Source: a virus | IMG/VR virus record: IMGVR_UViG_3300005253_000004 | Span: 55,471 to 119,470 of that record | DNA length: 64,000 nucleotides | Reading direction: 5' to 3' (one strand) | Shown here: positions 15,711 through 47,795 of the stretch, one piece after another | Numbering within the stretch: the first letter of the stretch is position 1 | Layout: every line of letters begins with the position of its first letter | Translations under genes and position numbers: made by a program | Notes under the pieces: generated by a model | Seen by the model: the letters and a program-made list of their open reading frames with translations, nothing else | Told to the model about the DNA's origin: nothing | The model's database searches: none

Positions 15711-15763
15711 ACTTTACCCTTTCCCTTAGGATTAGCTATCAGACCCTAGTTCAGTTAAAACCC

Positions 15764-15871: not shown

Positions 15872-15872
15872 G

Positions 15873-16378: not shown

Positions 16379-16379
16379 G

Positions 16380-16637: not shown

Positions 16638-16638
16638 C

Positions 16639-17787
16639 CTATGTTCCACTGTTAGCGAGGTACGAGCCGTACTCAGCATACATTAGTTTGAAGTATTTAT
16701 TCTTAGCTGCCTTCACCCTGTCCGCCTCACTCAATTTACTGAGTGCGATGATGGTTGCCATCTTGGCGATGAGCAACCCGAACTCAGCCTCCAGCTCGGG
16801 GCGCAGCACATACTGGAGTGCCTTGCTCCACTTATTCCAGTTCTCCTCGATGTTGATGTGATGCTCAAGTGCAGAGATCGTAGCGTACAACACATCAACC
16901 TCTGTCTTGGGCGGGATCGGAGCGTTCGCCGGGTCCTTGCAGATAACCTCGGGAGCGATCAGCTTGGTCGTGTTGTTGGCGAAGGCAGAGAACGCAATCC
17001 CGACACCCGAACCGATGCAACCAACGGCTGTCTTGTAGAGCCACTCACCTGCGACACCACCCTTCGGATCCATCTTGTACATGGCCTTGCTCATCATCTC
17101 CCAAGTCCTCGGCGTAGCAAAGGCTTTCTCTGCTGCTGCGAGCTTGACCACCTCGGCAAAGGTGTTCAGACATTGAGGCATTCTCCGAATGAAGGCAGTA
17201 ATCAGGGGGTTGATATGGTTATCAATCGCCCACTCCAACCACGAGTCTACGTCTGTCTTGGCGTAGTAATGCTTCATCCGATTAGCTAGAGCCATCGGCA
17301 TCTCAAATGCCGCTGACTTGTCCTCGACCCTGTTCCCCGCAGCTATGATATAGACGTTATCACGGAGCTGAAGGTTCCCTACTTTCTTCTCACCGAACAC
17401 CTTGAAGCAGGCAGCCTGTGTCTGCTCATGCCCTGTCACGATGTCATCAAAGAAGATAACCATCTTCTTCTTCTGCCATTCGGGAGGTGCCTCGGTGCTG
17501 GCATGGTACGCCCAGATGGGAGCGAGGATCCGAGTAGCCACAGCCTCACCCTTGTGCTTGTACTCAAACGGCACACCACTGATATCGGTGGGCTCCGAGC
17601 ATCCAGCGAGAACCAGCACGATCTCATGCGGATCCTCTTTCCTTGAGAACACAGCCTTGGTTGCCTCGGTCTTGCCAATACCGGGAGGACCCCAGATCAT
17701 AGTGGCAAACTCAGGCCCTAGCCTGTACACGATGTCAAGGATCTCACTCACATTCTGCTGGCAGATTTCCTGTCCTGCTGTTCCCAT
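16639..17787 (-). CDS. MoxR-type AAA+ ATPase
   Basis: 382 aa. Walker A is GPPGIGKT (33-40), Walker B VIFFDDIV (110-117), with AAGNRVEDKS as sensor region and a following arginine-rich LANRMKHYY. MoxR ATPases act as chaperone-like remodelers with VWA partners, here the gene at 14493-15710. The usual context is metal insertion or complex assembly; the phage role is unknown. Confidence 0.88.
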   Translation of the reverse strand: MGTAGQEICQQNVSEILDIVYRLGPEFATMIWGPPGIGKTEATKAVFSRKEDPHEIVLVLAGCSEPTDISGVPFEYKHKGEAVATRILAPIWAYHASTEAPPEWQKKKMVIFFDDIVTGHEQTQAACFKVFGEKKVGNLQLRDNVYIIAAGNRVEDKSAAFEMPMALANRMKHYYAKTDVDSWLEWAIDNHINPLITAFIRRMPQCLNTFAEVVKLAAAEKAFATPRTWEMMSKAMYKMDPKGGVAGEWLYKTAVGCIGSGVGIAFSAFANNTTKLIAPEVICKDPANAPIPPKTEVDVLYATISALEHHINIEENWNKWSKALQYVLRPELEAEFGLLIAKMATIIALSKLSEADRVKAAKNKYFKLMYAEYGSYLANSGT

Positions 17788-27757: not shown

Positions 27758-27838
27758 CTAACCTCCCATGAGGTATTCTAGCCCTCTGATGGCTGTGTAG
27801 ACTATGACTCCGAGGCATATGATCTCGAAGAGACTCAA
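27758..27838 (-). CDS. Possible membrane microprotein, 26 aa
   Basis: TTG start at 27838 overlaps the upstream stop (TTGA). One hydrophobic helix (SLFEIICLGVIVYTAI) then GLEYLMGG. No clear ribosome site, so weakly supported. Confidence 0.25.
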   Translation of the reverse strand: MSLFEIICLGVIVYTAIRGLEYLMGG

Positions 27839-28128
27839 GACCCGAACACGGTGCCCTTGAGAGCCGATGCCTTGATGCTCCAGAGGCTATCCTCGCGGCA
27901 CCAACGCGCTTTGCCCCGTGACGAAGCGCCGTAGCGGATCGCCTTGAGCTGCTTACGCAGCTTCAGGTCGTCCTTGGGGATGCTGACGAACACGTACCGC
28001 TCACCGTAGGCCTCGGTGTTCTTTGCGTTCTCAGTGATAACGATGCCATTGTCCTTGCCAGCAGCGGCTATGACGGCATTGAGCTTCTTCAGCTCTTTGT
28101 GTGCTGCCTTCAGTTCGGTCTTGGTCAT
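27835..28128 (-). CDS. GKARW-family small protein, paralog B
   Basis: 97 aa. MTKTELKAAHKELKKLNAVI start, then ERYVFVSIPK, LKAIRYGASSRGKARW and LWSIKASALKGTVFG. Very similar to paralog C, including the first residues and the GTVFG end. Function unknown. Confidence 0.65.
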   Translation of the reverse strand: MTKTELKAAHKELKKLNAVIAAAGKDNGIVITENAKNTEAYGERYVFVSIPKDDLKLRKQLKAIRYGASSRGKARWCREDSLWSIKASALKGTVFGS

Positions 28129-28411: not shown

Positions 28412-28708
28412 TTACTTGCCGAACACGGTGCCTTCAAGGGCCGAAGTCAAGACGCTCCAGGCAACTTCGTCCTTGTTCCAGCGGGCCTTACCGTGCGCAA
28501 ACCGGCCCCAACGCAGCGCCTTGATCTGCTTACGCAGCTCCGTGGAGGTCTTGGGGATCTTCACGAAGCTATAATCACCGAATTCGGCGTTCTTCGCGTT
28601 GACGTAGACCTCGATCTCCGTGTTGCCTTCGGCAATCTCGTGCTTTGCGATGAAGGCATTGAGTCGTTTGAGGTCAGCCTTAGCCTTGCGCAGTTCTGTC
28701 TTGGTCAT
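28412..28708 (-). CDS. GKARW-family small protein, paralog C
   Basis: 98 aa from ATG 28708 (MTKTELRKAKADLKRLNAFI), chosen for its AGGAG site; a longer frame to 28786 lacks one. Signature LKALRWGRFAHGKARWNK and AWSVLTSALEGTVFG. First gene of the long leftward transcript, about 57 nt below a promoter, so probably expressed early (inference). Confidence 0.68.
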   Translation of the reverse strand: MTKTELRKAKADLKRLNAFIAKHEIAEGNTEIEVYVNAKNAEFGDYSFVKIPKTSTELRKQIKALRWGRFAHGKARWNKDEVAWSVLTSALEGTVFGK

Positions 28709-28771: not shown

Positions 28772-28800
28772 AGTATCGCACGTCAAGTCGAGAAAGTCAA
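28772..28800 (-). promoter_or_regulatory. Sigma-70-like promoter, TTGACT-N17-GATACT
   Basis: Minus strand TTGACT (28800-28795), 17-nt spacer, GATACT (28777-28772). Located at the head of the 28-kb leftward gene array, with no plausible alternative gene upstream. Probably read by host sigma-70. Confidence 0.6.
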
Positions 28801-29355
28801 ATCCTCAACAAAATCAACTACTTACACGACCGACTTGCCGGTTCATACATGGTAAACCCCCCGCTAAGCTGCTGTTAATAACACTTTTTAGTGATACTGT
28901 TTAGTACTGATAATACCCTAGACAGGACGTGGGGTTACAGCAATAGTGCTTCAATGCCGTGGAGTTACAGCCTTGAGTACCTACTACTGTTTCCAAGGGG
29001 GGGGTGGGTCTATTGGTGTTGCCATCAGCTTAATATATCCAACTAGATCGCGGGGTTAGCCCAATCTGTGTAGTTTTAGACCCTTTTTGCTCTTTATGTG
29101 CTTTAATTAGACCGGTCATTCGCAAGAATGCCTTTATTTACGTGTACTTAGCCTTATTCCTTAGTGTATACCCACAAGAACCCAGAGGACAAGAGGTCTA
29201 GAGAGCCTAAGTAGTGGTTATAACGTACACATGGGGGTTTATGGTGGTAGTAGGGGTGTTTATGGTAAGTGTTCGTTGTTTCTTACGAATCTCTTGACTT
29301 GGTTGAGTCCGGACTCGGGTATCAGACCCCCGAAAAGGGGCCATTTAGGTGTTAT
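28801..29355. other. Gene-free region with short direct repeats, possible origin or control region
   Basis: No convincing open frame. Contains CGTGGGGTTACAGC (28928) and CGTGGAGTTACAGC (28958), 30 bp apart, and CGCGGGGTTAGCC (29049). Also GGGGTTTATGGT twice (about 29232 and 29254), a perfect 12-bp palindrome GAGTCCGGACTC (29305-29316) and a GACCCC-GAAA-GGGGCC hairpin (29325-29342). AT-rich in the middle. Function inferred only from the repeats. Confidence 0.4.
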
Positions 29356-29670
29356 TTAGGGGGCTTTTTGAGCAATTTGCATTATGGCGTACGCATGTTC
29401 TGATTCGAGCATCAAATACAAACATTCCAGCTCCTCCGGAGGCGATCTCAGACAGCGGGAGCAAGCCCAGCAGGGATCGGGGTGTCTTGCTCTCATGGGG
29501 AACTCGGCGTTCAAGTACAATACTAGTAGGTACTCAAGGCCCCCTTTGAGCACCGGTTGGCACAGGTGGTACATGTGGTGTAACCCCGAAACACTCGAAA
29601 CACTCGATTTCGCTATCACCCAGTCGTTCATTTCGAGCTTGATTTTTAGTCTGGAGCCGTCTTTAGTCAT
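29356..29670 (-). CDS. W-HxC-CxxC family small protein, copy 18
   Basis: 104 aa; last gene of the dense array. MNDWVIAK strand, YHLC, an extra Cys before CSRC (PCWACSRC), then SPPEELECLYLML. A 20-residue helical tail follows. The stop runs into a GC-rich hairpin. Function unknown. Confidence 0.75.
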   Translation of the reverse strand: MTKDGSRLKIKLEMNDWVIAKSSVSSVSGLHHMYHLCQPVLKGGLEYLLVLYLNAEFPMRARHPDPCWACSRCLRSPPEELECLYLMLESEHAYAIMQIAQKAP

Positions 29671-29912
29671 GCTCCCTCCTTCAAGAACCAGAACATGGCC
29701 TGGATGCCCTCCGGAGGAGCCTCCCTACATGCGAAACACGGGATACCCCGGTAGCAAAGACCGTAAACGAACGGATGCCATTCCAAATCGCTTCCGCATT
29801 TATGCCTACTGCAGGAACCACGGCATCTATGCTCGATGCTGATCGCCCGGATGGAGTTCAAATTGCGCCAGGCAAGCCGGAATGCCCCGATAGTGATTAG
29901 AGGCTCAGTCAT
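29667..29912 (-). CDS. W-HxC-CxxC family small protein, copy 19
   Basis: 81 aa. IGAFRLAW replaces the GDW strand (Phe first, Trp later). EHRC, CFAC, then APPEGIQAMFWFLKEG. Ends right after the helix. ATGA overlaps on both sides. Confidence 0.78.
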   Translation of the reverse strand: MTEPLITIGAFRLAWRNLNSIRAISIEHRCRGSCSRHKCGSDLEWHPFVYGLCYRGIPCFACREAPPEGIQAMFWFLKEGA

Positions 29913-30183
29913 TTTCCCTCCTAGAGTCCATATCTCCGGTCAGCATGACAAACAGCGCCTGAAGACCCTCAGGGACACGGGAGTGACATTGCGTGCAAGG
30001 ATATTGGAAGTACCGATAGATGTCTCGCCGAGCTGTCCACCACGAATGTTCACAGTTATGCCACAGATAATACAAGTAAGGGGTTCCTTGCTGGTGTTCT
30101 GGCGTTCCTTCTGTTTGCTCGTACAGCCCCCACCCTGCTTCAAAGGCGATGGGGTCAGGTTGCGGTTTCGGTTCAGTATCCAT
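29905..30183 (-). CDS. W-HxC-CxxC family small protein, copy 20
   Basis: 92 aa. EAGWGLYE strand, LWHNC, CTQC, then RVPEGLQALFVMLTGDM. The LTGDM ending is shared with copy 25. Pro-rich lead. Function unknown. Confidence 0.8.
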   Translation of the reverse strand: MDTEPKPQPDPIAFEAGWGLYEQTEGTPEHQQGTPYLYYLWHNCEHSWWTARRDIYRYFQYPCTQCHSRVPEGLQALFVMLTGDMDSRREND

Positions 30184-30186
30184 AGT

Positions 30187-30408
30187 CTACTCCTCCTTCA
30201 TGAATAAGAGCATCACTTGGATACTGTCCGGAGCTCTCTCTTGACAATTCCGACAAGGGCGATGACAAAGGCTAGGGGTTCCGCTAAACCCTTCCCATCG
30301 GTCCTTACACCGGTGCTCGATGAACCACCAGTCATATCCGCCCTTGTACCTGTACCGGGATAATCGGAAGTTTCCATATTCAAAGCGGACCGTTTTGTAG
30401 TCAGCCAT
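30187..30408 (-). CDS. W-HxC-CxxC family small protein, copy 21
   Basis: 73 aa, the shortest copy and close to a minimal domain: YGNFRLSRY (Phe for Trp), WFIEHRC, CRNC, APDSIQVMLLFMKEE. Useful for modelling the core fold. Confidence 0.8.
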   Translation of the reverse strand: MADYKTVRFEYGNFRLSRYRYKGGYDWWFIEHRCKDRWEGFSGTPSLCHRPCRNCQERAPDSIQVMLLFMKEE

Positions 30409-30640
30409 TGGGCTCTTCCTTCATAATCCAGAATATCGCTTGAAGGCCGTCTGAGGGACGACTCTTACACCAAGAGCACTTCCACCCCCGCGCCTGGACG
30501 CTGAAGATACGTCCGCGCCAGCAACCTTCATCGTCGTGGCCTTCTGGCACGGGGCACTTGTGCTCTAGGTACGTGTGCCGCATTATTGTCCCCATGTGCC
30601 GGCGGACCAGTCGGTAATCATTGTCAGTTTTGAGAACCAT
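30401..30640 (-). CDS. W-HxC-CxxC family small protein, copy 22
   Basis: 79 aa from ATG 30640, preceded by GAGG. TDNDYRLV (Tyr for Trp), LEHKC, WKCSWC, then RPSDGLQAIFWIMKEE. The 50 codons upstream in frame belong to the neighbouring gene. Function unknown. Confidence 0.75.
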   Translation of the reverse strand: MVLKTDNDYRLVRRHMGTIMRHTYLEHKCPVPEGHDDEGCWRGRIFSVQARGWKCSWCKSRPSDGLQAIFWIMKEEPNG

Positions 30641-30654
30641 CAAGGTCGCCTCAA

Positions 30655-31080
30655 TCAGTAGGCCCTTCCTAAGGGGAGTAAAACCCCGCCTGACCAAGGC
30701 CCAAATGTACCCGGCGGGTCGTCTTCTTCCACGCGCCTGCGCAGTTCCAGGACTTCGCTTACCTCCAAGGAGGTGTTGTCCGGCTCCAGCAGGCACCAGA
30801 CAGCAACGATGCTTGCGGGTGGAACTGCGAAGCAGTTCTCGCAGTGCCAGTTGGGCTTGATCTTCCGGGTCCCGTTGATAGAGAAGTCAGACCCTATGTC
30901 GGCTCGGTACTCACAGAGGTACATATCCCATTCAGTCTTTTCGCACTGGTGCCAGAGCCCATGCGTGGTGAACCTGTTATGATACTGGAGGATCCTCCAC
31001 CGGCCTCGTTTGAGCTTCTCAGCACCGTACTCTGTTTCGATGTACTCTGCTTGGGACTTCCATACGCCTTTCAGACTCAT
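30655..31080 (-). CDS. W-HxC-CxxC family protein, copy 23, with C-terminal extension
   Basis: 141 aa from ATG 31080 (ATGA overlap). RGRWRILQY strand, LWHQC, WHCENC, then VPPASIVAVWCLL. About 40 residues follow (acidic, then PGTFGPWSGGVLLPLG). One of four copies with an added tail. Confidence 0.75.
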   Translation of the reverse strand: MSLKGVWKSQAEYIETEYGAEKLKRGRWRILQYHNRFTTHGLWHQCEKTEWDMYLCEYRADIGSDFSINGTRKIKPNWHCENCFAVPPASIVAVWCLLEPDNTSLEVSEVLELRRRVEEDDPPGTFGPWSGGVLLPLGRAY

Positions 31081-31343
31081 GACCCCTCCATCAAGAACCA
31101 GAAACACGCCTGAAGCCCTTCGGCGGGGCGTTCTTTGCATAAGGGGCATTCCGTGCCTCGGTTGCCGGTCGTGTAGATCATCCCACGCCATTGTTCTTCC
31201 CATTTAAGGCCAGCAACAGAGCACTTGTGCTCGATGAGGATTACTGCGGGGAGATACACGGCGCCCATCCCGGTTTGACGGGTGTACTGGCGAATTCGCC
31301 ATCTGTCGATCTGGAGGTGGACTGTCGATCCGAGGTCACTCAT
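31077..31343 (-). CDS. W-HxC-CxxC family small protein, copy 24
   Basis: 88 aa. IDRWRIRQY strand, LIEHKC, CPLC, then RPAEGLQACFWFLMEGS. The strand resembles copy 23 and the helix copy 19, in line with local duplication. Function unknown. Confidence 0.8.
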   Translation of the reverse strand: MSDLGSTVHLQIDRWRIRQYTRQTGMGAVYLPAVILIEHKCSVAGLKWEEQWRGMIYTTGNRGTECPLCKERPAEGLQACFWFLMEGS

Positions 31344-31579
31344 GGCTTCATATCCCCTGTCATCAGGACGAACATTGCTTGGATCCCTTCGGGGACTGCT
31401 TTATGACACCAACCACAAGGGTGGTGTAGCCCTCTATACCTATACCGAGTAGCCACTAAGCCAGTGGTGTCTAGACATACGTGATGAAGAAAGTGACTCA
31501 TTTGCCAGCTAGGGCTCTGGTCTTGTGTGACGCAGAGGTCCCAGGTATCCTCAGACCAGATGACGTCTTTGGTCTTCAT
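31340..31579 (-). CDS. W-HxC-CxxC family small protein, copy 25
   Basis: 79 aa. SEDTWDLCV strand, LHHVC, CGWC, then AVPEGIQAMFVLMTGDM. Close to copy 20 in the helix. ATGA overlaps on both sides. Confidence 0.8.
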   Translation of the reverse strand: MKTKDVIWSEDTWDLCVTQDQSPSWQMSHFLHHVCLDTTGLVATRYRYRGLHHPCGWCHKAVPEGIQAMFVLMTGDMKP

Positions 31580-31959
31580 GGCTTGTACTCCCAGATCTGT
31601 CCAGGCTGCCCGATCGGTGTGCCACTACCCATGTAGAAGAAACCCCCTGGGACTAGGTAGAGGTAGTTCGAGGAGTAGAAGGGTGAGAGCTCTTCTTGGT
31701 ACTGGGGTTCTTCTAGGAGGTCGAAGTTCTTCAGCTTCCATAATCCCATGATCGAGTCCGGGATATCTGCTCCACAATGCATACAGGTCTGCATCGTCTT
31801 CATTTCCCAGGTGCTGATCGGCTTGTACTGGAGCAGAAAGTTCCACTTCCATTTGCACTTGTGATAAACTGTATCGAACATATCCTCGTACCCAGGGATA
31901 CCCTTGATGATCCAGCCTTGATCCTTAAATAGAACTCCTTCGTCACGCAAGCGACTCAT
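31576..31959 (-). CDS. W-HxC-CxxC family protein, copy 26, with aromatic extension
   Basis: 127 aa from ATG 31959, preceded by CAGGAG. DQGWIIKG strand, VYHKC, CMHC, then DIPDSIMGLWKLKNF. About 48 extra residues are rich in Tyr, Phe and Gly (FYSSNYLYLVPGGFFYMGSG). Function unknown. Confidence 0.75.
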   Translation of the reverse strand: MSRLRDEGVLFKDQGWIIKGIPGYEDMFDTVYHKCKWKWNFLLQYKPISTWEMKTMQTCMHCGADIPDSIMGLWKLKNFDLLEEPQYQEELSPFYSSNYLYLVPGGFFYMGSGTPIGQPGQIWEYKP

Positions 31960-32231
31960 CCGTGCTCCTGCCCGTATCGCACCAGCTCCCAAAACCCAAC
32001 CAGCTCAGTAGGAACGTCGGCGCAACAGTGGCTACAGCGTGGGTCGCCTTGAGGGTCATGTATCATGTTGGCATCCTTCTTCCACACGCTGGAGCATCGA
32101 TGCCACAATGTGGCAGTCGGTTGCCTCGCTCTGCCCTTCGACGGCGGGCCTAAGTATTCATCGTTGATGATGAAGAACCCATCATCCTCCCACAGGATTT
32201 TCCGATCGAGAAACTTAGGCACGGTAGTCAC
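31956..32231 (-). CDS. W-HxC-CxxC family small protein, copy 27
   Basis: 91 aa, GTG start at 32231 directly after the upstream stop. EDDGFFIIND replaces the Trp strand, LWHRC, CSHC, then DVPTELVGFWELVRY. No good ribosome site, so translation is probably coupled to the upstream gene. Confidence 0.75.
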   Translation of the reverse strand: MTTVPKFLDRKILWEDDGFFIINDEYLGPPSKGRARQPTATLWHRCSSVWKKDANMIHDPQGDPRCSHCCADVPTELVGFWELVRYGQEHG

Positions 32232-32582
32232 TCAAAACGGCATGCCGCGCAGCGAATCGGCCCAAGGATCCGGCTCCGAAGCGTCTGCTATTTCATTTGT
32301 ACTGCGGTCCCAGTCTAGCATGATGTAGGCCCCGGTTAGTCCTTCGGGGCTGAGAGCGTTGCACATCGTGCAGCGCCAGCCCTGCTCATCCGGACTAGAA
32401 TCGAAGCTCCTCCACGCGCCGTACCTGCACTCATAGATGGTACGGTGCTTGACGAGTTCTTCATCGCCGTAGTCATCGCAGTTGTGCCAGATCCGGACGT
32501 CCTTGCTCAATGCACTTTTCAGTAGCCGAAACCGACCTTCTCGCATCAGCATTTGCATGTATGCCCTAGGTTGGTGCGTCAT
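32232..32582 (-). CDS. W-HxC-CxxC family protein, copy 28
   Basis: 116 aa from ATG 32582 (ATGA overlap, GGAGG upstream). REGRFRLLK (Phe for Trp), IWHNC, WRCTMC, then LSPEGLTGAYIMLDW and a 23-residue acidic tail. Function unknown. Confidence 0.76.
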   Translation of the reverse strand: MTHQPRAYMQMLMREGRFRLLKSALSKDVRIWHNCDDYGDEELVKHRTIYECRYGAWRSFDSSPDEQGWRCTMCNALSPEGLTGAYIMLDWDRSTNEIADASEPDPWADSLRGMPF

Positions 32583-32857
32583 CCTAGCATAGCCTCCATA
32601 TGTGTCATCTGCCATAAAGCTTGGATACTCTCGGGGATTTCTTCTTCGCACAACCCACAGCGAGGGGTGTTCTTCATGTTATCAGAGTGGACTACGAGTT
32701 CTTTTCGATCATCCTTAGGGCATTCATGAAGCACGATAGGTGCCTCGGAAAGGTGCTTCCACTTCACACCCCACTTAGTGGGTGCGAGGAGTTTCCACGT
32801 TCCTTCTTGGATTATAGGCGTATCGTTGTACAAGTAGCGATCATCTTCTAGTCCCAT
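32579..32857 (-). CDS. W-HxC-CxxC family small protein, copy 29
   Basis: 92 aa. QEGTWKLLA strand, VLHEC, CGLC, then EIPESIQALWQMTHM. GGGAAG precedes ATG 32857. Function unknown. Confidence 0.8.
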   Translation of the reverse strand: MGLEDDRYLYNDTPIIQEGTWKLLAPTKWGVKWKHLSEAPIVLHECPKDDRKELVVHSDNMKNTPRCGLCEEEIPESIQALWQMTHMEAMLG

Positions 32858-32869
32858 GGGTTCTTCCCT

Positions 32870-33076
32870 TTATCGCTTCTGGGGGCCTTCCGGCACCTTG
32901 AGGATGGTCCTGCTTTTGTCTAGCTTGCAGCCCTCGTCACAGTGGAACTTCATACTTTTTCTGCCGAACAGTTTCACGGCCTTCACAGGCTTATTGTGAT
33001 TCCGACAGTAACGTATTTTCGAAAACCCTGCCGCACTCGGAAGGACTGTTCTCGGATTGCGCATTCGTTTACCCAT
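32870..33076 (-). CDS. Small basic Cys protein, 68 aa
   Basis: Unrecognised. Basic (MGKRMRNPRTV...), with YCRNHNK and FHCDEGCKLDK giving C-x2-H and C-x3-C, a plausible zinc site. It interrupts the family array but lacks the Trp strand and Pro-helix, so I do not count it as a member. Confidence 0.5.
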   Translation of the reverse strand: MGKRMRNPRTVLPSAAGFSKIRYCRNHNKPVKAVKLFGRKSMKFHCDEGCKLDKSRTILKVPEGPQKR

Positions 33077-33249
33077 TACCCCTCCGTAGGCTCCTTAATT
33101 CTGCGTTGGATCTCTCTGCGAATATCAGCCACTATATACCCGCTACCCGAGTCGTCGTTGAAATAATCCTCATTGTCGTCTATGTATTCTATAAGTTCCT
33201 TCAGCTCGGCTTTGACTGCCATCTCTGCCGCGTATCTATTAATTCCCAT
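33076..33249 (-). CDS. Small acidic helical protein, 57 aa
   Basis: ATG 33249 follows AGGAG. Sequence MGINRYAAEMAVKAELKELI then an acidic stretch (DDNEDYFNDDSGSG) and a basic helix. Unrecognised. Second of two non-family genes in the array. Confidence 0.5.
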   Translation of the reverse strand: MGINRYAAEMAVKAELKELIEYIDDNEDYFNDDSGSGYIVADIRREIQRRIKEPTEG

Positions 33250-33257
33250 GGTGTCTC

Positions 33258-33587
33258 CTATGAGATTGGTGCTTCGTAAAGTCTGACTGCCATCGCAATG
33301 CCTTTGTCGAGAACGAACCCACACCCTTCACACCAATACATCGGGCCGTCGTTGTTCTCGCGGAGCGTCATCTCTTTGTAGTCTTCTCGTCCTTCGCAGT
33401 GGTGGACGAGCATTTCGTGCGGAACTGTGTTGTACTTAACGAGGTACACGTTTTCGGCTATTTTCTTCACCGAAGATTCCGTCTTTTGCGTCTCTTCTTT
33501 GGAAGGGACTCGTTGGTAAACGGTGTCACCCTGACCGAAGAACGCGGGGCGAGCACGACGAATGATGCGAGCTATACCTTCCTTCAT
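33258..33587 (-). CDS. W-HxC-CxxC family protein, copy 30 (diverged)
   Basis: 109 aa. NVYLVKY in place of the Trp strand, LVHHC, YWCEGC, then LDKGIAMAVRLYEAP where Pro is lost. A 40-residue basic lead precedes. Included because the His-Cys and Cys-Cys sites and the order of elements are kept. Confidence 0.65.
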   Translation of the reverse strand: MKEGIARIIRRARPAFFGQGDTVYQRVPSKEETQKTESSVKKIAENVYLVKYNTVPHEMLVHHCEGREDYKEMTLRENNDGPMYWCEGCGFVLDKGIAMAVRLYEAPIS

Positions 33588-33943
33588 AGCTCCTCCTCCA
33601 TGATGATGATCCCTTTGATCCCATCAGAGAGGGTTTTCTCACAGCGACGGCACTTACCGTAGATGCTGATACCTCCTCCTTTGGTCTTGTAATACTCTAC
33701 CCATGACGGAGCCCTGATCCTATCGTCGTCACAGGCATGTGCCAATCGAGACCCTAGATCGTATTGTAGGGCCCTCCATGACGCGAACGAAAACCAGAGC
33801 GGGGAGTTCCTAGCAACGACGTTCAGCCGAGTGTACTCCTTCTGGACCCTCTCTACGATGACAGGCTTCGGGCACCAGTACCAGTCATCAATCTGAGGCC
33901 ACATCTCTTTGCGGATGAGCGTTTTCCGATGGTAGCTTCTCAA
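33584..33943 (-). CDS. W-HxC-CxxC family protein, copy 31 (diverged)
   Basis: 119 aa. I place the start at TTG 33943, overlapping the upstream stop (TTGA) with GAGG at 7 nt, rather than the longer frame to 34066. DWYWCP strand, AHAC, CRRC, then LSDGIKGIIIMEEE. A Trp/Arg-rich middle is extra. Start uncertain. Confidence 0.6.
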   Translation of the reverse strand: MRSYHRKTLIRKEMWPQIDDWYWCPKPVIVERVQKEYTRLNVVARNSPLWFSFASWRALQYDLGSRLAHACDDDRIRAPSWVEYYKTKGGGISIYGKCRRCEKTLSDGIKGIIIMEEEL

Positions 33944-34254
33944 GCTAATCCCTCGTCGCCTGTCCCTAAGCCATCGCTCCAGATGGCTCGAAGTCCATTT
34001 TCGTCTTCTGAGTCCCATATTTCTTTGCATCCTGTACAGTAATACCAGCCGTGAGTAAAGTCCCATCGGACCCTTTCAGTCAGGATCACCCATGTTGAGG
34101 GGTCCCCTGTATCTAAATCTTGCTCACAGATATGCAGAAGGGGCTGTACCCCCTCGTTATCATGCAGGTTCGGATCTCTGACAAACCACGCATCCTTAGG
34201 GAGTTCCTTGACTGGAACCTTGTAAACACCAGTACCCTCTATCCATTCTTCCAT
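33940..34254 (-). CDS. W-HxC-CxxC family protein, copy 32, first gene of the array
   Basis: 104 aa. KDAWFVRD strand, LLHIC, YYCTGC, then an acidic segment and NGLRAIWSDGL. The ATG at 34254 lies only 7 nt below the TATAAT of its promoter, so the mRNA is probably leaderless. Opens the run of 15 family copies. Confidence 0.68.
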   Translation of the reverse strand: MEEWIEGTGVYKVPVKELPKDAWFVRDPNLHDNEGVQPLLHICEQDLDTGDPSTWVILTERVRWDFTHGWYYCTGCKEIWDSEDENGLRAIWSDGLGTGDEGLA

Positions 34255-34260
34255 ATCTTC

Positions 34261-34289
34261 ATTATAGCTTTTCTTTCAAACTTTTGCAA
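34261..34289 (-). promoter_or_regulatory. TTGCAA-N17-TATAAT promoter for the family array
   Basis: Minus strand TTGCAA (34289-34284), 17-nt spacer ending AAGC, TATAAT (34266-34261). The spacer is nearly the same as that of 307-335. Drives 33940-34254 and the array. Confidence 0.72.
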
Positions 34290-34300
34290 CCCCCGAAAGC

Positions 34301-34329
34301 TTGCAATTTTCTGCGGGATAAGCTATAAT
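34301..34329 (+). promoter_or_regulatory. TTGCAA-N17-TATAAT promoter, rightward
   Basis: TTGCAA 34301-34306, 17-nt spacer ending AAGC, TATAAT 34324-34329 followed by GG. Divergent from 34261-34289 with 11 bp between the two -35 hexamers. Confidence 0.65.
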
Positions 34330-34336
34330 GGTATAC

Positions 34337-34365
34337 GTGCAAAGAAAAAGGAGAATTCCTATAAT
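34337..34365 (+). promoter_or_regulatory. GTGCAA-N17-TATAATTAAG promoter, rightward
   Basis: GTGCAA 34337-34342, spacer ending ATTCC, TATAAT 34360-34365 then TAAG. Second of two tandem rightward promoters; the ATTCCTATAATTAAG core recurs at 53562 and 61131. Confidence 0.7.
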
Positions 34366-34444
34366 TAAGTAGGAGCAACGATATCCACCCAGGAGACTCC
34401 AGTCTCCCTGCTTCGCGAGGACGTGCCAATCTAGAGGTACGGTC

Positions 34445-34731: not shown

Positions 34732-35208
34732 ATGAGTGATCAAGTAGTCCGTTATGAGACGGAAGAAGAGTACATCGAATATACAAATCATCGCCGCTGG
34801 CTCGCTACTGGTACACTGGTATCCTTCCCTGATTGGGCCAAGGATCCGGATGCTTACTGGAACGCGCACGCTGCCTACATACAGAAGCACCCCACCGCTG
34901 TCTTAGAGATGTGGACGCTGCTTCATAAAGAGCACATTGACCCCGGCACAGGCGAACTCCTCAGTCAAGACTGCAGTTATACCACTCTTGCGTATGAAAA
35001 TCTTGAGATAGGGAAAGTTTCTAGACAGCTCGTCAGAGACAACGAGCTGTCGGATCCAGGTACCCCTGTGTCTATAGAGTTTAGCGACATCAAAGAAGCA
35101 CAGAAAATGAGAGCGTTTCTGATGCAAGGAACGCCAGGATATTATTACGATATTAAGCATCGGGTGGGTGTGGCTATCATAGACAGGGAGACCAAAAATG
35201 CTGAATAA
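34732..35208 (+). CDS. Hypothetical protein, 158 aa
   Basis: Start at ATG 34732 (MSDQVVRYETEEEYIEYT) with GGGAG; a GTG at 34657 would add 25 residues. Soluble, acidic, with aromatic-rich DWAKDPDAYWNAHAAYI. Ends in a strand-helix unit (YYYDIKHRVGVAIID). No motif recognised. Confidence 0.55.
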   Translation: MSDQVVRYETEEEYIEYTNHRRWLATGTLVSFPDWAKDPDAYWNAHAAYIQKHPTAVLEMWTLLHKEHIDPGTGELLSQDCSYTTLAYENLEIGKVSRQLVRDNELSDPGTPVSIEFSDIKEAQKMRAFLMQGTPGYYYDIKHRVGVAIIDRETKNAE

Positions 35209-35638
35209 AATGTTGAAGAGGTTTTGGGCTAAGGTTAAACAAGGACCTGGATGCTGGGAGTGGCAGGCTGTCTGTTTTCCCGATGGGTATGGTGCTTTTA
35301 GATTGAAAGGTTCGATGCAAGGTGCTCATCGTGTGTCTTATGCGATGGGGCATGATATTCCCAAAGGTATGTGTGTCTTACATACCTGCGATAACAGACT
35401 ATGCGTAAGGCCCTCACATTTGTTCTTAGGAACAAAAGCCGACAACATGGCTGACAGAGACGCCAAAGGGCGGCAAGCAAGAGGGGTTCATAACGGAAAA
35501 GCAAAGCTTACTGAAGCACAAGTGAGAAGTATCCGCTCTGATCTTAGATCGCTGCGTGTGATAGCCGAAGATTATGAGGTGTTTCATACCACAATAGGAT
35601 GCATTAAACGACGTGAAACCTGGAAGCACGTCAACTGA
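35198..35638 (+). CDS. HNH homing endonuclease, paralog of 6050-6505
   Basis: 146 aa. Same layout as the left-arm copy: GCWEWQ, HRVSYAMGHDIP, LHTCDNRLCVRPSHLFLGT, ADNM, then a KLTEAQVRSIRSD helix-turn-helix. On the opposite strand and 29 kb away, showing nuclease mobility within one genome. GGGAG precedes ATG 35198, which overlaps the upstream gene. Confidence 0.88.
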   Translation: MLNKMLKRFWAKVKQGPGCWEWQAVCFPDGYGAFRLKGSMQGAHRVSYAMGHDIPKGMCVLHTCDNRLCVRPSHLFLGTKADNMADRDAKGRQARGVHNGKAKLTEAQVRSIRSDLRSLRVIAEDYEVFHTTIGCIKRRETWKHVN

Positions 35639-36571: not shown

Positions 36572-36919
36572 ATGAGTAAGACCAGTAAAATCGCTGTTTT
36601 AGATGAACGAAATGCCGAAGTGCTTGTAGAGCTTATTTGCGGTCCAAACATTAGCGAGACACTGAGAATTCAAGCTATGTCTAAGTTGACCGAATCTAAT
36701 AAAGACGACACGTTTTTTACCACCATGTTCAAAGAGAAATTGGATTGGGGGAAATGCCCCCACTGCAGCCATGAAAACTTCTGGCTGACGCCCGAAGACC
36801 AAAGCAATCAGATGGGCTGGGTGAGCCACAAAGAAGACAAGCGAGTGCCTGAAAATACGGATGCAAAGTCGTGTCCTCTTTACGAACAAGCTTGCAAAAA
36901 GAAGCGGATAGTAACGTGA
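36572..36919 (+). CDS. Small zinc-knuckle protein, 115 aa
   Basis: GGAGGG precedes ATG 36572. An N-terminal helical half is followed by CPHCSHENFW near residues 62-71 and CPLYEQAC near the end. The four Cys likely bind zinc. It overlaps the HNH gene by GTGA. Its role is unknown. Confidence 0.6.
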   Translation: MSKTSKIAVLDERNAEVLVELICGPNISETLRIQAMSKLTESNKDDTFFTTMFKEKLDWGKCPHCSHENFWLTPEDQSNQMGWVSHKEDKRVPENTDAKSCPLYEQACKKKRIVT

Positions 36920-37491
36920 AATCTGCTTCTCAAAAACAGAGAGAGTATGCTGAGCGGCACCCTGAGAGAATAAAAGAGTATCGTAAACAATGGATAGAAT
37001 CAGGTCGTTCTGCGGAATATCAGCGGCGGTGGAAGAAACAGAACCCTGAGAGTCACAAAAAGAACATGGATCGTTATAACGGTTCAGAGAAATCTAAGGC
37101 GTGTCAGAAAAGATACAACGATAATAATAAAGAAAAACGTAGAGCAGTAGGTCGACGCTGGTACCAGAAAAACAAAGAAAAAGCTAAGGCTCGTTCTGCT
37201 ACTTATTTCAAGACACCAAAAGGCAGATTGGTGAAACGGGCATGTGATAACAAACGTAGAGGAGCAGGAGGCACCTTCACAGCCGAGGACATCAAAGATT
37301 TATACGCGACCCAGGGAGGTCGCTGTTACTACTGTAGTGTTGAGATAGAAAGTGGGTACCACATCGAACATATGACTCCTTTGAGCAGAGGGGGAAGAAA
37401 CGATGTGTCTAATATCTGTCTAGCTTGTGCGCCTTGCAACTTGCAGAAGCACACAAAGACGGCAGAAGAGTTCAAAGGAGAACAGAAATGA
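36916..37491 (+). CDS. HNH endonuclease
   Basis: 191 aa from GTG 36916, overlapping the upstream stop. A long basic, Arg/Lys/Tyr-rich N-terminus (about 110 residues) precedes a classical HNH: CYYCSVEI, YHIEHMTPLSRGGRND, NICLACAPCNLQKH. The tail repeats resemble DNA-binding regions of phage HNH nucleases. Cuts DNA; may act near packaging or as a homing nuclease. Confidence 0.85.
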   Translation: MKSASQKQREYAERHPERIKEYRKQWIESGRSAEYQRRWKKQNPESHKKNMDRYNGSEKSKACQKRYNDNNKEKRRAVGRRWYQKNKEKAKARSATYFKTPKGRLVKRACDNKRRGAGGTFTAEDIKDLYATQGGRCYYCSVEIESGYHIEHMTPLSRGGRNDVSNICLACAPCNLQKHTKTAEEFKGEQK

Positions 37492-42107: not shown

Positions 42108-42633
42108 AGAGCTAGGTTTTGGAGACTGGTCGATTGACAAAGACCTTTATGATTTCATACGAAAGGTCCTACCAGAAGGCAGCACAATACTAGAGTTGGG
42201 CAGCGGGTTCTCTACAGGGGAATTGTCGAAGTACTACACTATGTTCTCTGTGGAGCACGATGTGGCTTTTCTAGATAAATACGACTCCACGTACCTACAC
42301 GCCCCTTTAAAGGAACACAAGAAGCTCAAGAACCACGATAGCACTGAGTGGTATGACGCTAGTATCCTCCATGACTTGTTGAAGGGGTTGAAGTACGATC
42401 TTCTGTTGGTAGACGGTCCTCCCCAAACAAGGTCAGGGTTTGTTAAGTACATCAACTTGTTCGACACTAGCGCCATCTGGGTTTTCGATGACGCTGGTAG
42501 AAGCATTGATAGAGCTGTAGTCAACTCAGCCGCTAGTGTACTAGGGGTTCCGTGGGTGAACTACCGCAGCGAGGCAGGCGGGAAGGTGTATTCAGTGCTC
42601 AACAACCCGCTACTTAGGAGTACTGATGAATAA
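42085..42633 (+). CDS. Class I SAM-dependent methyltransferase
   Basis: 182 aa from ATG 42085, preceded by GGGAG. Motif I is ILELGSGFSTGEL, then LLLVDGPPQ and IWVFDDAGRS. Clearly paralogous to 41305-41829. Probably methylates a sugar or other small substrate. Confidence 0.75.
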   Translation: MAKSECLEELGFGDWSIDKDLYDFIRKVLPEGSTILELGSGFSTGELSKYYTMFSVEHDVAFLDKYDSTYLHAPLKEHKKLKNHDSTEWYDASILHDLLKGLKYDLLLVDGPPQTRSGFVKYINLFDTSAIWVFDDAGRSIDRAVVNSAASVLGVPWVNYRSEAGGKVYSVLNNPLLRSTDE

Positions 42634-43366
42634 CTGGATTACGTTTATAGGGGAGGGGAGAAGTGGGCACACAATTGTTTCTGCTATATTGGATTCGCAC
42701 CCTAATGTCCGTTTGGCAGAGGAGCAGAAGCTCATCACTAAGTGGACACGGGATGGGTGGTCACGGGAGAAAATCATCGACGCCGTCAAGAACTGCGGGC
42801 ATGGGAAAGAGCGTAAACCGAAGGCTCTACCAGGGTCGCTGACGTGGGAAGAACCGCTGCTGGCGATAGGAGACAAGTGCGGCTGGGACGCTGTGAACCT
42901 CACTAGAAAGCACGGAGAGAGTATTGACGTTTTAGATAGGTTCAGCGAACACATGTTGATGCCAGTTAAGTTGATCCACACGATCCGGAATCCGTATGAC
43001 AACATCACCGCTTACCTCGACAGCCCCAAGTCCAACCGGATTTGGCGGGATGAGGATACGCTGCATCGTATGTGCATTCGGCGATACGCGAGGTTCTACA
43101 GCACAGCGATTAAGCTATTGGAAATTTACCCCAGGTTTGATCTCTACAACGAGGAGTTGATCAAGAATCCAGAGCGTACGTTGACAAAACTGTGTGCGTT
43201 TCTTGACCTCCCTGTTGTGGAGCCTTGGCTGACCAACGCAGCGAATGCTGTGTACAAGAAGCCGAATGAAAGATCTAAGCGTCGAGTATGGCCTGCTGCA
43301 TGGGAAGAGCAGATGCCATGGCGCATCATAGGGAAGTATGCTTTCTTTGAGAGGTACACAAAATGA
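42626..43366 (+). CDS. Sulfotransferase
   Basis: 246 aa. The 5'-phosphosulfate loop is FIGEGRSGHTIVSAIL (residues 7-22) and the 3'-phosphate site IHTIRNPYDNITAYL. PAPS is the sulfate donor. First of four sulfotransferase-like genes in the island. Acceptor unknown; neighbours suggest glycan. Confidence 0.8.
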   Translation: MNNWITFIGEGRSGHTIVSAILDSHPNVRLAEEQKLITKWTRDGWSREKIIDAVKNCGHGKERKPKALPGSLTWEEPLLAIGDKCGWDAVNLTRKHGESIDVLDRFSEHMLMPVKLIHTIRNPYDNITAYLDSPKSNRIWRDEDTLHRMCIRRYARFYSTAIKLLEIYPRFDLYNEELIKNPERTLTKLCAFLDLPVVEPWLTNAANAVYKKPNERSKRRVWPAAWEEQMPWRIIGKYAFFERYTK

Positions 43367-43983
43367 TTAGAGTGCGGGACGACGACGTGCTGCTGAGTTC
43401 TAGCAGCAAGGGAGACGAGTTTACGAAGTTTCAAATGGTGCATAATTGGATCTGTGAGGTGCCTGACCGTCTCATTCATGTACCTACCATTCTAGTGACA
43501 GAGATTCAGGAGTTCCCGAAGTGCATTGAGTACATCCGCGAAGAGGCAGCAGAAGGGCGTATGGCCCCTGAGATACATGGACTGAAGCACCATGACTACG
43601 CGGCTCTCACTTCAGCAGAGATCGTTCTAGAGTTGGATGAGTGCCAGGAGTGGATCTATAAGAACCTTGGTTGCACCCCCCACAAGTTTTACTCACCTTG
43701 GGGCGCTGGAGCGGATGAACGAGGCGCACACATCAAAGGAGCCGCGAAGTCACTGGGTCTTGAGTTAGTGACATGTGAGAGCATCCACAAGATGGACGGA
43801 CGGTATGGGGTAGTCCAGGCTTTGTTGGATGGCAAAGACATTAGCTACCTTGAAGATGATGAGATCTTTCTACATTGGTGGCAGAACGTGACTCGCCTCA
43901 AGAGGATCATAGAGGTCATCAAATTTGGTTCTTGGGAGTCGGCCAGGGCAGCGAACAAGAAGTTGTTCAAGGAGGAGAAATGA
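43363..43983 (+). CDS. Polysaccharide deacetylase-like protein
   Basis: 206 aa. IRVRDDDV at the N-terminus and APEIHGLKHHDY, then HKFYSPWGAG, match the metal and catalytic regions of NodB-type carbohydrate deacetylases (D-D, H-x3-H, and a substrate loop). Would remove acetyl groups from a glycan. ATGA overlaps on both sides. Confidence 0.7.
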   Translation: MIRVRDDDVLLSSSSKGDEFTKFQMVHNWICEVPDRLIHVPTILVTEIQEFPKCIEYIREEAAEGRMAPEIHGLKHHDYAALTSAEIVLELDECQEWIYKNLGCTPHKFYSPWGAGADERGAHIKGAAKSLGLELVTCESIHKMDGRYGVVQALLDGKDISYLEDDEIFLHWWQNVTRLKRIIEVIKFGSWESARAANKKLFKEEK

Positions 43984-44555
43984 GTTACGAAGAGTATATT
44001 AGAGATTTATTGAATCGAAGGGTCAAATCCTGGCAAGACCGCGCTGCCTACATAAATGCAAAGTGGGGACCGAAGCGCCTAGGTGTTGACAACCCGGGCA
44101 ATAGAGCAGACCGTGCGTTCCTAGAAGAATACGCCGTAGGCTTAGGTGTTGACATTTGCTGTGGTGACTTTCTTTTAGGTGACGAATCCATTGGCGTTGA
44201 CATCCGAAGAACGGTGCTCGGTGCTGACTATCACTACAGCGGGGATGACCTGGCTTTCTCTAAGACAAACGAGTTGGACTACGTTCTTACCAATTACATT
44301 GAGGCTATGCCCAATGTGATTAAAGCACTCAATGAATGGTTCCGTGCTTTGAGAGCAGGTGGTACAATGGCTATCGTTTGTAGAAATGCAGATGTATACC
44401 CAGGACCTGAAGGTGCTCTAAAGAACCGACATAGAGTACACACTTTCAGTAAGGTGACGTTGTCTCATTATTTAGGCCGGGTTGGGTTCGAAGATATTAA
44501 CATAAAGGAGACAGAACACCAAACGCTGCATGTGACAGCAAAGAAGCCAACATGA
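43980..44555 (+). CDS. Methyltransferase (type 11-like)
   Basis: 191 aa from ATG 43980. Motif I is GLGVDICCGDF (residues 51-61), followed by DYVLTNYIEAM and LRAGGTMAIVC. The order fits the methyltransf_11 group. Acceptor unknown. Confidence 0.7.
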   Translation: MSYEEYIRDLLNRRVKSWQDRAAYINAKWGPKRLGVDNPGNRADRAFLEEYAVGLGVDICCGDFLLGDESIGVDIRRTVLGADYHYSGDDLAFSKTNELDYVLTNYIEAMPNVIKALNEWFRALRAGGTMAIVCRNADVYPGPEGALKNRHRVHTFSKVTLSHYLGRVGFEDINIKETEHQTLHVTAKKPT

Positions 44556-45676
44556 TTAAGATTGTAGAATCAGAGGTCACATCATTCGATACCAGCAAAT
44601 GGGCTGATATGGTAATAGGGCCTGCCCGGAGGAGGTTCTTGACTCCAACAGGTGAGCATTACCGTCTTCTGATTCACCTCGCGCATAAGATCTCAGATGG
44701 TGTATTTTACGACGTAGGAACGCTTGATGGGGCGTCTGCGATAGCGTTGGGGTCGAACCTTAGTAATCTTGTTACATCTTGGGACATCAGCGAGGTTTCT
44801 AGAAAGACCGCAGGGTATGCTTACCCTAACGTACCTGGGATGGACAACATCGAGTTTCGTACCAAGAGTATCTTCGATGAGCCTGCGTGGATTTATGACG
44901 TAGCAGACATCATCTGTTTGGATATAGCTCCACATGATGGGATTAAAGAACGTCTGTTCATGGAAGTATTAGAGAAATCGAATTTTAAAGGACTTCTGAT
45001 TTGTGACGATATACGTAACCGACGCTTCCCTAATTTGTCAAAGTGGTGGGATGAGATTGACCATCCTAAATGGATTATCCCGTATGCTCACTGTAGTGGT
45101 ACTGGTATAGTTTCATATGGAGATGAGACCATCGTCAAAGGGTACCCAACTGTTTCTCACGGCATCAAAGGTCACTTGTCTAGAGTCGAAGCAAACTGGC
45201 TTAACGAGATGCCAGCACGGATTGGAGACGGATTATATGGTGAGTTAGGCACCTACAGAGGAAGGTCTGCGGCCTGTATAGCAGGCGGCATACAGACCAG
45301 TGGTATAAAAGCACACCTCATCACAGTAGACTCTTACGATGGTAGGAGTATGACTTCAGGAAGACCACACTCAATGGAGGATACAGTTGCCTGTTTCAAG
45401 GAAAAGGGGATCAGCGAGTATGTCACTTTCATGAAAGGGCTGACGGTCCCTATGGCTGATAAGTGTAGATCTCAAAGATTTGACTTCCTCTTCATAGATG
45501 CCGACCACTCATACGAAGGGTGTAAGGCTGACTTTGTGGCGTGGAGCCCTTTGGTTAGGTCTGGCGGGGAGATCGCATTCCACGATGCCAACTTAGATTC
45601 AGTACTCCAGGTAGTGAAAGAGAGCGGGTGGGAGTGGCATATGGTAGACACGATGGCGGTGGTAACAAAGCCATGA
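44552..45676 (+). CDS. Protein with two methyltransferase domains in tandem
   Basis: 374 aa. The first domain has FYDVGTLDGASAIAL and LDIAPHDG; the second has YGELGTYRGRSAACI, FLFIDADHSYEG and GGEIAFHD. Both look like the SAM-binding Methyltransf_24 type. Two modules in one chain suggest an internal duplication or two methylation steps. Confidence 0.72.
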   Translation: MIKIVESEVTSFDTSKWADMVIGPARRRFLTPTGEHYRLLIHLAHKISDGVFYDVGTLDGASAIALGSNLSNLVTSWDISEVSRKTAGYAYPNVPGMDNIEFRTKSIFDEPAWIYDVADIICLDIAPHDGIKERLFMEVLEKSNFKGLLICDDIRNRRFPNLSKWWDEIDHPKWIIPYAHCSGTGIVSYGDETIVKGYPTVSHGIKGHLSRVEANWLNEMPARIGDGLYGELGTYRGRSAACIAGGIQTSGIKAHLITVDSYDGRSMTSGRPHSMEDTVACFKEKGISEYVTFMKGLTVPMADKCRSQRFDFLFIDADHSYEGCKADFVAWSPLVRSGGEIAFHDANLDSVLQVVKESGWEWHMVDTMAVVTKP

Positions 45677-46344
45677 ATCGAACAATCGTCTCGTACCCGG
45701 GGAGTGGTAGAACTTGGCTTCGTGTTGTCATAGGAAAGCTGTGTTCCCTTCAGAACGGCACTTCAGATAAAGACTTGTTCAGGACCCCAGGATACAACTT
45801 CTTTCACATACTACCCCCGGAAGGACTCATGGGAAGGAACTTGTTTCTTCTGAGGGACCCTAAGGACGTTTTGAAGTCTAGCTACTATGAGTACAAATAC
45901 CGCCTGAAGAGAGGCGCAGATGATATTGGAACGTTTTCTGAGTTCCTTAGGGGCCCGGCGGGTGCTTCTCAGATAACGCGACGTTATAACAACTGGCACG
46001 ATGTGTGGGAAAAGGATAGTATCTCCGGGGTGGAGTTTTATGAAGACATAGTCGCAGACCCAATAGGTGAGTTCTCTGACCTACTTGATTGGTTCGGGCA
46101 GGAGTATAAACCAATGGATCTAGCCGAAGCTGTCAAGTTTGCAGAGTTTGAAAACCTACGTAGGCTTTCTAAAGAGCAGTACTTCAACTCAACGTATCTA
46201 AACGCTGAAAACCCTAACGATGCTAGAACCTATAAGTTTAGAGTAGGTAGGGTCGGGGAAGGTAACGCGTTCATACCAGAAGAAGACATGGAGTATGTTG
46301 AGAAGACGTTTAGCAAGATCAAATGGAGTAGGTACCGTGGGTGA
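45673..46344 (+). CDS. Sulfotransferase
   Basis: 223 aa. SYPGSGRTWLRVV is the 5'-PAPS loop and LLRDPKDVLKSSYYEY the 3'-phosphate site, typical of carbohydrate/alcohol sulfotransferases (Sulfotransfer_1 type). Acts with the other island enzymes (inference). Confidence 0.8.
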   Translation: MNRTIVSYPGSGRTWLRVVIGKLCSLQNGTSDKDLFRTPGYNFFHILPPEGLMGRNLFLLRDPKDVLKSSYYEYKYRLKRGADDIGTFSEFLRGPAGASQITRRYNNWHDVWEKDSISGVEFYEDIVADPIGEFSDLLDWFGQEYKPMDLAEAVKFAEFENLRRLSKEQYFNSTYLNAENPNDARTYKFRVGRVGEGNAFIPEEDMEYVEKTFSKIKWSRYRG

Positions 46345-46909
46345 CGGGAAGATCCTAATTATGGGTGTTGGGGGTTGTGGGTCTGGTTTCCTGTGGAAGC
46401 TACTTGATGATTGTGGTCTTGAGACTCTTGGTATCAATGAGTGGATGCGGCACAGCGGCATCAGGCAGGCAGTAAAGGAAGGCGTTCATGCTGAATTTAA
46501 GTCCCCCAAAGTCATCAAACATCTTGGAGGGTTTCTTACCAATTTGAACTATCATATTGACCAACACAATTGGGAAGTCGAACACATTTTCTTTGCCGTG
46601 GCGTCTCTAGGTATGCAGATGCAGAGCTTTAGGGAGCGTACCCGCCGAGGGCCTTTTGATTACGATACCTATCTGGATAAGTACAGGTATCAGCTAGGCA
46701 CGGGCCTGATCCAACTAATCGAAAGAGACCATCCCTTCAGCCTTATTGAGTGCCCCCGTTCTTTATCAGATTCTAAGTACTGCTACAACAAATTGAAGAT
46801 CGTCCTACCAGATACATCGTATGAAGAGTTCGCTGAAATCCATAAAGCTAGAGTGAACCCTGTGCGGTTGAAGAATAGGCTAAAGGGTTTGGAGGAACAG
46901 AATGACTAA
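46337..46909 (+). CDS. Sulfotransferase-like P-loop protein
   Basis: 190 aa from GTG 46337, overlapping the upstream gene. ILIMGVGGCGSGFLWKLL is a P-loop of the sulfotransferase fold. The 3'-phosphate motif is not clearly seen. Short C-terminus. Likely a diverged sulfotransferase. Confidence 0.6.
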   Translation: MGDGKILIMGVGGCGSGFLWKLLDDCGLETLGINEWMRHSGIRQAVKEGVHAEFKSPKVIKHLGGFLTNLNYHIDQHNWEVEHIFFAVASLGMQMQSFRERTRRGPFDYDTYLDKYRYQLGTGLIQLIERDHPFSLIECPRSLSDSKYCYNKLKIVLPDTSYEEFAEIHKARVNPVRLKNRLKGLEEQND

Positions 46910-47795
46910 GCTGATCGGGGTAATGTGTGTACGAGATGAAGCGGATTTACTTCCTGAGGTCTACCCTCATATTAAGGAACTGGTGGATGAAATTTACGTC
47001 TATGATGATGGCTCTACGGACGACACCTGGGGGCTGGTGAAGGACGCAGACTACGCCATTCGGCGGGAGGACGACATTAACCGCCTTAGTATTCCGCGAC
47101 CCAACTATCATCACCTCCTAGAGAAGATCAAGGAGAATCACAACATAGAGGAAGAGGATGTTTGGGCGATCATCACGATGGGTGATCGGTTTTTCCTGAA
47201 CAAGACACCGCGCCAGATTGTGAAGGAGGCAGGAGATTACGTGTCGGTACAGGGGATCCAGTTGGATTTCTTGCGGCACCGCAGGGACCCTTGGACGGAA
47301 GAGAATGATGGGTTCCCAAACTACTCACAGAGCCTACGTGAGCTTTGTCGAGCGGTGCGGGTAGATGAACGATGCACGGTGGCCTATAAGGTGACGAACG
47401 AGACCACCTATCAGCGGGCCAGATACCCCTGGCCTAAAGGAGCAGGCACGCCACAGTATTCAGATCTCGGGGATAAGATCTCATTGGACATGCCTTATCT
47501 CGAACACCAAGGAAGACGTTCACCTAAAGCAGCCCAGTGGCGATACAACACAGGGAGCCGCCCTATTGGGAGGAAGTATCAGCATTGGGACTTCAGCACG
47601 TTTGAATCTTCTATGAAGAGTATGCGCCGGTTTTATGAACCTTATCGGGTCTACCCTTGGGCGGGGTCTGAGTCGTTGGAGTTGATCATCAAGTGGTACA
47701 ACACTGAAGAACTGATGAATACTTCAAGTAGGCGATGGTTCTTCAAAGGTATGGAAGCGGTGTGGCCCGAACTGCCTCCGAGGACTGACATATGA
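46902..47795 (+). CDS. Glycosyltransferase, GT2-like
   Basis: 297 aa. [18 protein letters not shown], then [12 protein letters not shown], matches GT-A fold family-2 glycosyltransferases. No standard DxD metal motif is visible later (ITMGDRFFL is the nearest), so donor use is uncertain. Would add a sugar to an acceptor. Confidence 0.72.

Follow-up and report, generated by a model that had tools for sequence, protein, structure and literature searches.

The array and its gene content

The 64,000-nucleotide (nt) stretch analyzed here (the window) comprises positions 55471–119470 of the 119,470-base IMG/VR virus record IMGVR_UViG_3300005253_000004, called G000 in the comparisons below. It contains an array of 17 leftward genes packed between positions 34254 and 29356, most of which encode members of a single family of small proteins marked by a tryptophan, an H-x-C and a C-x-x-C motif. 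The array lies directly behind a conserved promoter, and its genes diverge rapidly under purifying selection. We propose, with a probability of roughly 45%, that it is an early-expressed cassette of small zinc-stabilized binders for host takeover or counter-defense.

G000 is an uncultured tailed bacteriophage, since it carries a terminase, located in its rightward half, together with replication-type genes (DnaB-type helicase, RtcB, a ligase-like protein and a sigma factor); the latter are encoded in the leftward half, as is an AAA/VWA pair. No close relative was found among 50,697 named phage records. Relatives were retrieved via the terminase and helicase: G002 (IMGVR_UViG_3300037246_000990, 119,599 bases), which is collinear with G000 after reversal and rotation, G001 (3300009506_000085, 49,073 bases), and several fragments.

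A preliminary description of this DNA had listed 17 packed leftward genes, and its coordinates, strand and packing were all correct. Overlaps occur at 11 of the 16 junctions, of 4 nt (ATGA or TTGA) at eight and of 1 or 8 nt at three, and the other five have gaps of 0–14 nt. Family membership was examined with a profile that was seeded with a few copies and searched iteratively against six-frame translations. This profile detected 12 array copies with E values of 2e-15 or better, and the gene at 33584 with an E of 6e-11 (profile-profile comparison with hhalign, P 5e-6). The gene at 33258 was weak by sequence (E 0.05, then 0.002), with a profile-profile P of 3e-5. The first gene, 33940, was below detection at E<1 and is without the proline of the C-x-x-C-P helix motif; it has the W, H-x-C and C-x-x-C in register and an hhalign P of 0.002 (probability 13%), so that it is likely a member, mainly by motif. 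The earlier count of 15 family genes is therefore fair when read as 12 secure, two supported (33584 and 33258) and one likely (33940), and the two small genes said to interrupt the chain are indeed outside the family. The array genes, in the order of their direction, are:

33940–34254 (−), array gene 1, family by motif; ortholog 80% in G002, 38% in G001
33584–33943 (−), array gene 2, family; TTG start with 4-nt overlap, alternative ATG at 33904; orthologs in G002 and G001
33258–33587 (−), array gene 3, divergent family member; G002 ortholog 74%
33076–33249 (−), non-family gene, 57 residues; G000 only, none found in the relatives by tblastn
32870–33076 (−), non-family gene, 68 residues, with its own Cys/His pattern; 81% in G002, 47% in G001
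32579–32857 (−), family copy; E 9e-20; G002 ortholog 69%
32232–32582 (−), family copy, the slowest evolving; E 2e-18; G002 ortholog 82%
31956–32231 (−), family copy, GTG start; E 2e-18; G002 ortholog 63%
31576–31959 (−), family copy without clear ortholog; E 2e-18; best G002 match 33–36%
31340–31579 (−), family copy absent from G002; E 5e-19; no reciprocal best hit
31077–31343 (−), family copy absent from G002; E 9e-20; AlphaFold model, predicted local distance difference test score 87
30655–31080 (−), family copy; E 2.5e-16; G002 ortholog 71%
30401–30640 (−), family copy; E 2e-18; G002 ortholog 51%
30187–30408 (−), family copy; E 3e-19; G002 ortholog 58%
29905–30183 (−), family copy; E 5e-21; G002 ortholog 54%
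29667–29912 (−), family copy; E 3e-17; two related G002 copies, 37820 and 37927
29356–29670 (−), last family copy; E 2e-15; G002 ortholog 48%

Motif and predicted fold of the family

The collection of family members, including those of the related phages, held about 112 proteins, with an identity between copies of about 20%. Nearly all contained C-x-x-C. Upstream of it, H-x-[C/H] was found by strict pattern in 96 of the 112, and most of the others had H-x-x-C. Among the 96 scored copies, a Cys occupied the second ligand position in 78 and a His in the other 18, and a proline was present at a set position in 77. After C-x-x-C follows a C-terminal helix motif, P-x-x-I-x-[G/A]-x-x-x-L-x-x-W. Because a metal site tolerates the replacement of Cys by His at one ligand, the family likely binds zinc via H-x-[C/H]...C-x-x-C. 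The isoelectric points of the copies range from about 4 to about 10, which argues against a nucleic-acid role shared by all of them.

A scattered copy and the array copy 31077 were modeled with AlphaFold at mean confidences of 86 and 87. Both models have four strands followed by a C-terminal helix, and the predicted fold of the family is thus β-β-β-β-α. Zinc-ribbon and treble-clef fingers likewise have paired Cys/His ligands and a small β-rich domain with a helix, but no Pfam zinc family scored above chance and there was no confident structural match to them.

Searches for known relatives

The family is absent from the standard libraries searched, and its function is uncharacterized. The best zinc-family hit in Pfam had an E of 0.042, with one member each and none above the gathering score. 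PHROGs gave no convincing match (best E 0.01, one member per family), and hits in NCBIfam and in PADLOC, which lists defense proteins, were none or at chance level. Foldseek against the PDB and viral models returned nothing at an E of 0.001 or less, the best VIA-align score was at background level (Z 3.8), and a profile search against PDB sequences gave chance hits only. Queries with a family member, with a consensus made by hand and with core genes retrieved no relative of the family from the 50,697 phage records; weak consensus matches in Chi-like Salmonella phages were rejected, as they lie antisense to an annotated gene. A literature search did not find a description of the family.

Nor did the searches point to a host. 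RtcB matched proteins across many bacterial phyla and indicated no host, no family copy was found in the loci around the bacterial RtcB matches, and bacterial genomes gave no relative of the DnaB-type helicase of G000.

Promoters and transcription of the array

A promoter had been placed at 34261–34289 in the preliminary description, and it proved to belong to a real, phage-specific class that is kept in G002 and G001. The region at the array head contains three elements:

34261–34289 (−), promoter TTGCAA-17-TATAAT before the array; exact match to a 29-nt class (TTGCAAAAGTTTGAAAGAWAAGCTATAAT); kept in G002 and G001
34301–34329 (+), divergent promoter of the same class; exact match; kept in G002 and G001
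34337–34375 (+), promoter-like element of a second class, GTGCAA-17-TATAATTAAGTAGGAG; in all three phages; recurs at 36526, 53539 and 61108

The first class, TTGCAA-17-TATAAT, ends in AAGCTATAAT and the other in TTCCTATAATTAAGTAGGAG; the second-class element at 34337–34375 ends in TAGGAG. Sites in the window are at 307–335 (−), 6733–6761 (−), 34261–34329 (both strands), 53516–53567 (both strands), 36526, 51205 and 61108. TTGCAA-17-TATAAT has a sigma-70-type layout (hexamers spaced by 16–18 nt), and the record contains 19 matches versus 1–5 in randomized sequence. The 29-nt core of the first class is nearly identical among its several sites in the record, and the class is kept at matching places in G002; many sites of the two classes are conserved there. 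The G001 promoter keeps the hexamers and their spacing in a different surrounding sequence.

The array interior contains only one poor promoter match, which falls within a gene. Leftward of 34261 the next good match to the phage promoter on the array strand is at 6733, with none in between, and transcription of the whole array from a single promoter, as first claimed, is to that extent supported by sequence. In G000 and G002 the first array ATG is 7 nt after the −10 box, and in G001 the distance is similar; the message of the first gene may therefore be leaderless. No clear intrinsic terminator was found after the array, and the transcript may therefore continue beyond 29356.

Evolution across related phages

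The array is found at the same place in G002 (17 copies) and in G001 (about 14–15), by our own counts. Its head genes and the small gene 32870–33076 are retained in all three phages; beyond the head, the G001 array has little in common with that of G000. Twelve array genes of G000 have clear partners in G002, in the same order, a thirteenth (31576) has a weak partner only, and each of the two phages carries private copies.

Reciprocal best matches between G000 and G002 gave 24 family genes and 148 other open frames. Median identity was 63% for the family versus 79% for the other frames (P 1e-5) and 75% for the small ones (P 5e-4), in a comparison set that was compiled mechanically and may include some non-genes. 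The ratio of nonsynonymous to synonymous substitution rates (dN/dS) was 0.43 for the family, 0.22 overall and 0.26 for small genes; family values of 0.19–0.52 were obtained, and every family gene was below 1. These low ratios, combined with fast divergence, indicate that the copies encode real proteins under purifying selection that are nonetheless quick to change. Within ortholog pairs the ligands and the helix were conserved at 72–81% (helix 75%), the inter-ligand stretch at 54% and the tail at 45%.

Repeated tandem duplication had been suggested as the origin of the array, and a tree of 112 copies over 91 columns, with many forks unresolved, bears this out in part. The array or scattered label changed six times on the tree in G000, versus a mean of 11.4 after shuffling (0 of 300 shuffles as low), so that array copies cluster, and the tree named as refuting in the preliminary description, with array members no closer to each other than to scattered copies, was not obtained. 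The labels clustered likewise in G002, and G001 alone gave no signal. The distal copies 29667, 29905, 30187, 30401, 31077 and 31340 fall into two clades that also include G002 array copies (support 85 and 89%), and a 45-nt DNA repeat persists at the ends of 29667, 30187, 30401 and 31077. The closest pairs are 29905/31340 (39%), 29667/31077 (40%) and 30401/31077 (49% over 51 residues). While the label clustering and the repeat favor tandem duplication, the array is not a single clade, as 31576 and 32579 fall among scattered copies, and a closer relationship of neighbors was not upheld: similarity showed no significant gradient with distance along the G000 array, and adjacent copies were not significantly closer. 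Most of the duplications are judged to predate the G000/G002 split.

Scattered copies of the family

Seventeen further copies lie singly between replication genes of the window:

1734–24288 (−), 17 scattered family copies, all with E about 7e-15 or better
Copy ends (−): 1734, 2109, 3849, 5058, 7945, 8213, 8514, 9979, 13802
Copy ends (−), continued: 14203, 15873, 16139, 16380, 18028, 23128, 23593, 24016

Upstream of the window the record holds three further family places. At one of them, record positions 54218–54568, the copy is split by an in-frame TAG and is apparently decaying. In total G000 has about 34 intact copies and one broken one, roughly 9% of the record by summed length. Every copy is in the leftward, replication-gene half, and the terminase half has none.

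Possible function of the family

In the proposed function as a cassette of binders, each copy would have one β-β-β-β-α scaffold held by the H-x-[C/H]...C-x-x-C metal site, and copy-specific loops and tails would be presented to different host proteins, such as defense or takeover targets. Tandem duplication would create the copies, divergence and loss would follow (birth and death), and the phage would as a result carry many specificities at once. This function is favored because all copies share the leftward half with the DnaB helicase, ligase, RtcB and sigma factor, and because the array comes first behind a conserved divergent promoter. It is favored also because orthologs evolve faster than other genes yet under purifying selection, and because members are gained or lost between phages while the head and the place of the array persist. 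At the protein level, Cys/His variation at the second ligand fits a metal site, the ligands and helix are conserved while the inter-ligand stretch and tail vary, and the spread of isoelectric points speaks against a common nucleic-acid role. A place at the head of a replication-side unit, small size, many divergent copies, and fast but constrained turnover are typical of host-takeover and counter-defense genes.

Three findings weigh against the proposal. No copy resembles a known anti-defense or host-takeover protein in Pfam, PHROGs, NCBIfam or PADLOC; many copies stand alone among core genes, contrary to what a dedicated cassette would predict; and dN/dS was below 1 throughout, so that diversifying selection is not demonstrated. 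A more far-reaching form, in which the family would be the phage analogue of a multigene effector repertoire, is doubtful. It would require a new zinc-stabilized scaffold with about 34 specificities, each neutralizing a different host protein; an early operon would co-produce many of them, and birth and death would renew them.

The scattered copies bear on two other explanations. Many of them adjoin core genes open to regulation, and small proteins with a likely metal site, in a phage whose promoters fall into at least two classes and occupy about 15 sites, could be zinc-finger-like transcription or RNA-binding regulators of phage promoters or transcripts, the paralogs tuning many operons. This appears unlikely, as the charge of the copies ranges from strongly acidic to strongly basic, and they turn over much faster than the promoters, which are nearly identical between phages. 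The single scattered copies, the presence/absence differences between relatives and the one broken copy could also be read as traces of selfish or nearly neutral genes whose spread by duplication and insertion brings the phage little benefit. We regard this as improbable: dN/dS values of 0.19–0.52 and intact frames in nearly all copies point to selection for the proteins, and no mobility gene was noticed alongside the copies. The conservation pattern within the protein raises yet another possibility, namely that the copies are adaptors whose C-terminal helix docks on one machine (host RNA polymerase, a protease or a replication protein) while the variable parts recruit clients. The helix after C-x-x-C is indeed the most conserved part outside the ligands, but this may reflect core packing alone, and an adaptor role likewise seems unlikely.

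Genome neighborhood

The array head is the point at which both gene direction and cumulative guanine-cytosine skew switch. On the other side, the array is followed by one feature:

28790–29350 (strand not assigned), conserved non-coding stretch; 83% DNA identity to G002 over 632 bp; no long open reading frame

This stretch of about 560 bp is better conserved in G002 than several array genes. A structured RNA was considered and rejected, as there was no Rfam match and folding was no better than that of shuffled sequences. The adjoining genes 27835–28128 and 28412–28708 (−; MTKTEL...) resemble mutual paralogs, another small duplicated family beside the array.

Elsewhere in the window, a DUF2201 metallopeptidase/VWA protein and an AAA ATPase (14496–17787, −) form a MoxR/VWA-like pair; family copies flank the two genes and also lie between them. 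A tyrosine integrase-family gene (52691–53482, −) adjoins the divergent promoter pair 53516/53539. After the terminase, 42626–47795 (+) contains sulfotransferase-, glycosyltransferase- and polysaccharide-deacetylase-like genes and, by eye, methyltransferase-like frames; this stretch is poorly conserved between G000 and G002.

Comparison with known systems and significance

Counter-defense loci are known to expand by tandem segmental amplification, as at the TifA locus of T4 (PMC9391042) and, driven by SegB, in T6 (PMC13096335), and homing endonucleases are able to drive such amplification (PMC13096335). The likeness to the array is in tandem expansion of the locus; here, two HNH endonuclease genes (35198–35638 and 36871–37491, +) are found no more than 3 kb away from the array head, and the first has a 62% match in G002. 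The T4 and T6 amplifications are recent and laboratory-selected, whereas the G000 copies are old, about 20% identical, and kept under selection.

In SIRV2 and other archaeal viruses, early clusters of small genes share a strong promoter and include anti-CRISPRs, and anti-defense genes have been located by means of this common early promoter (PMC11065993). These clusters and the array both have a conserved promoter before small, fast-evolving genes of unknown function. Most early genes of the SIRV2 type have their own promoter copy, whereas the bacterial-phage array has one promoter before a chain of paralogs.

Should the copies prove to be binders directed at the host, the array would amount to a naturally occurring library of phage inhibitors built on a single scaffold, and to an example of how a repertoire evolves in a bacterial virus. 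In uncultured phages related to G000, the conserved promoter signature could serve to search for early cassettes of this type.

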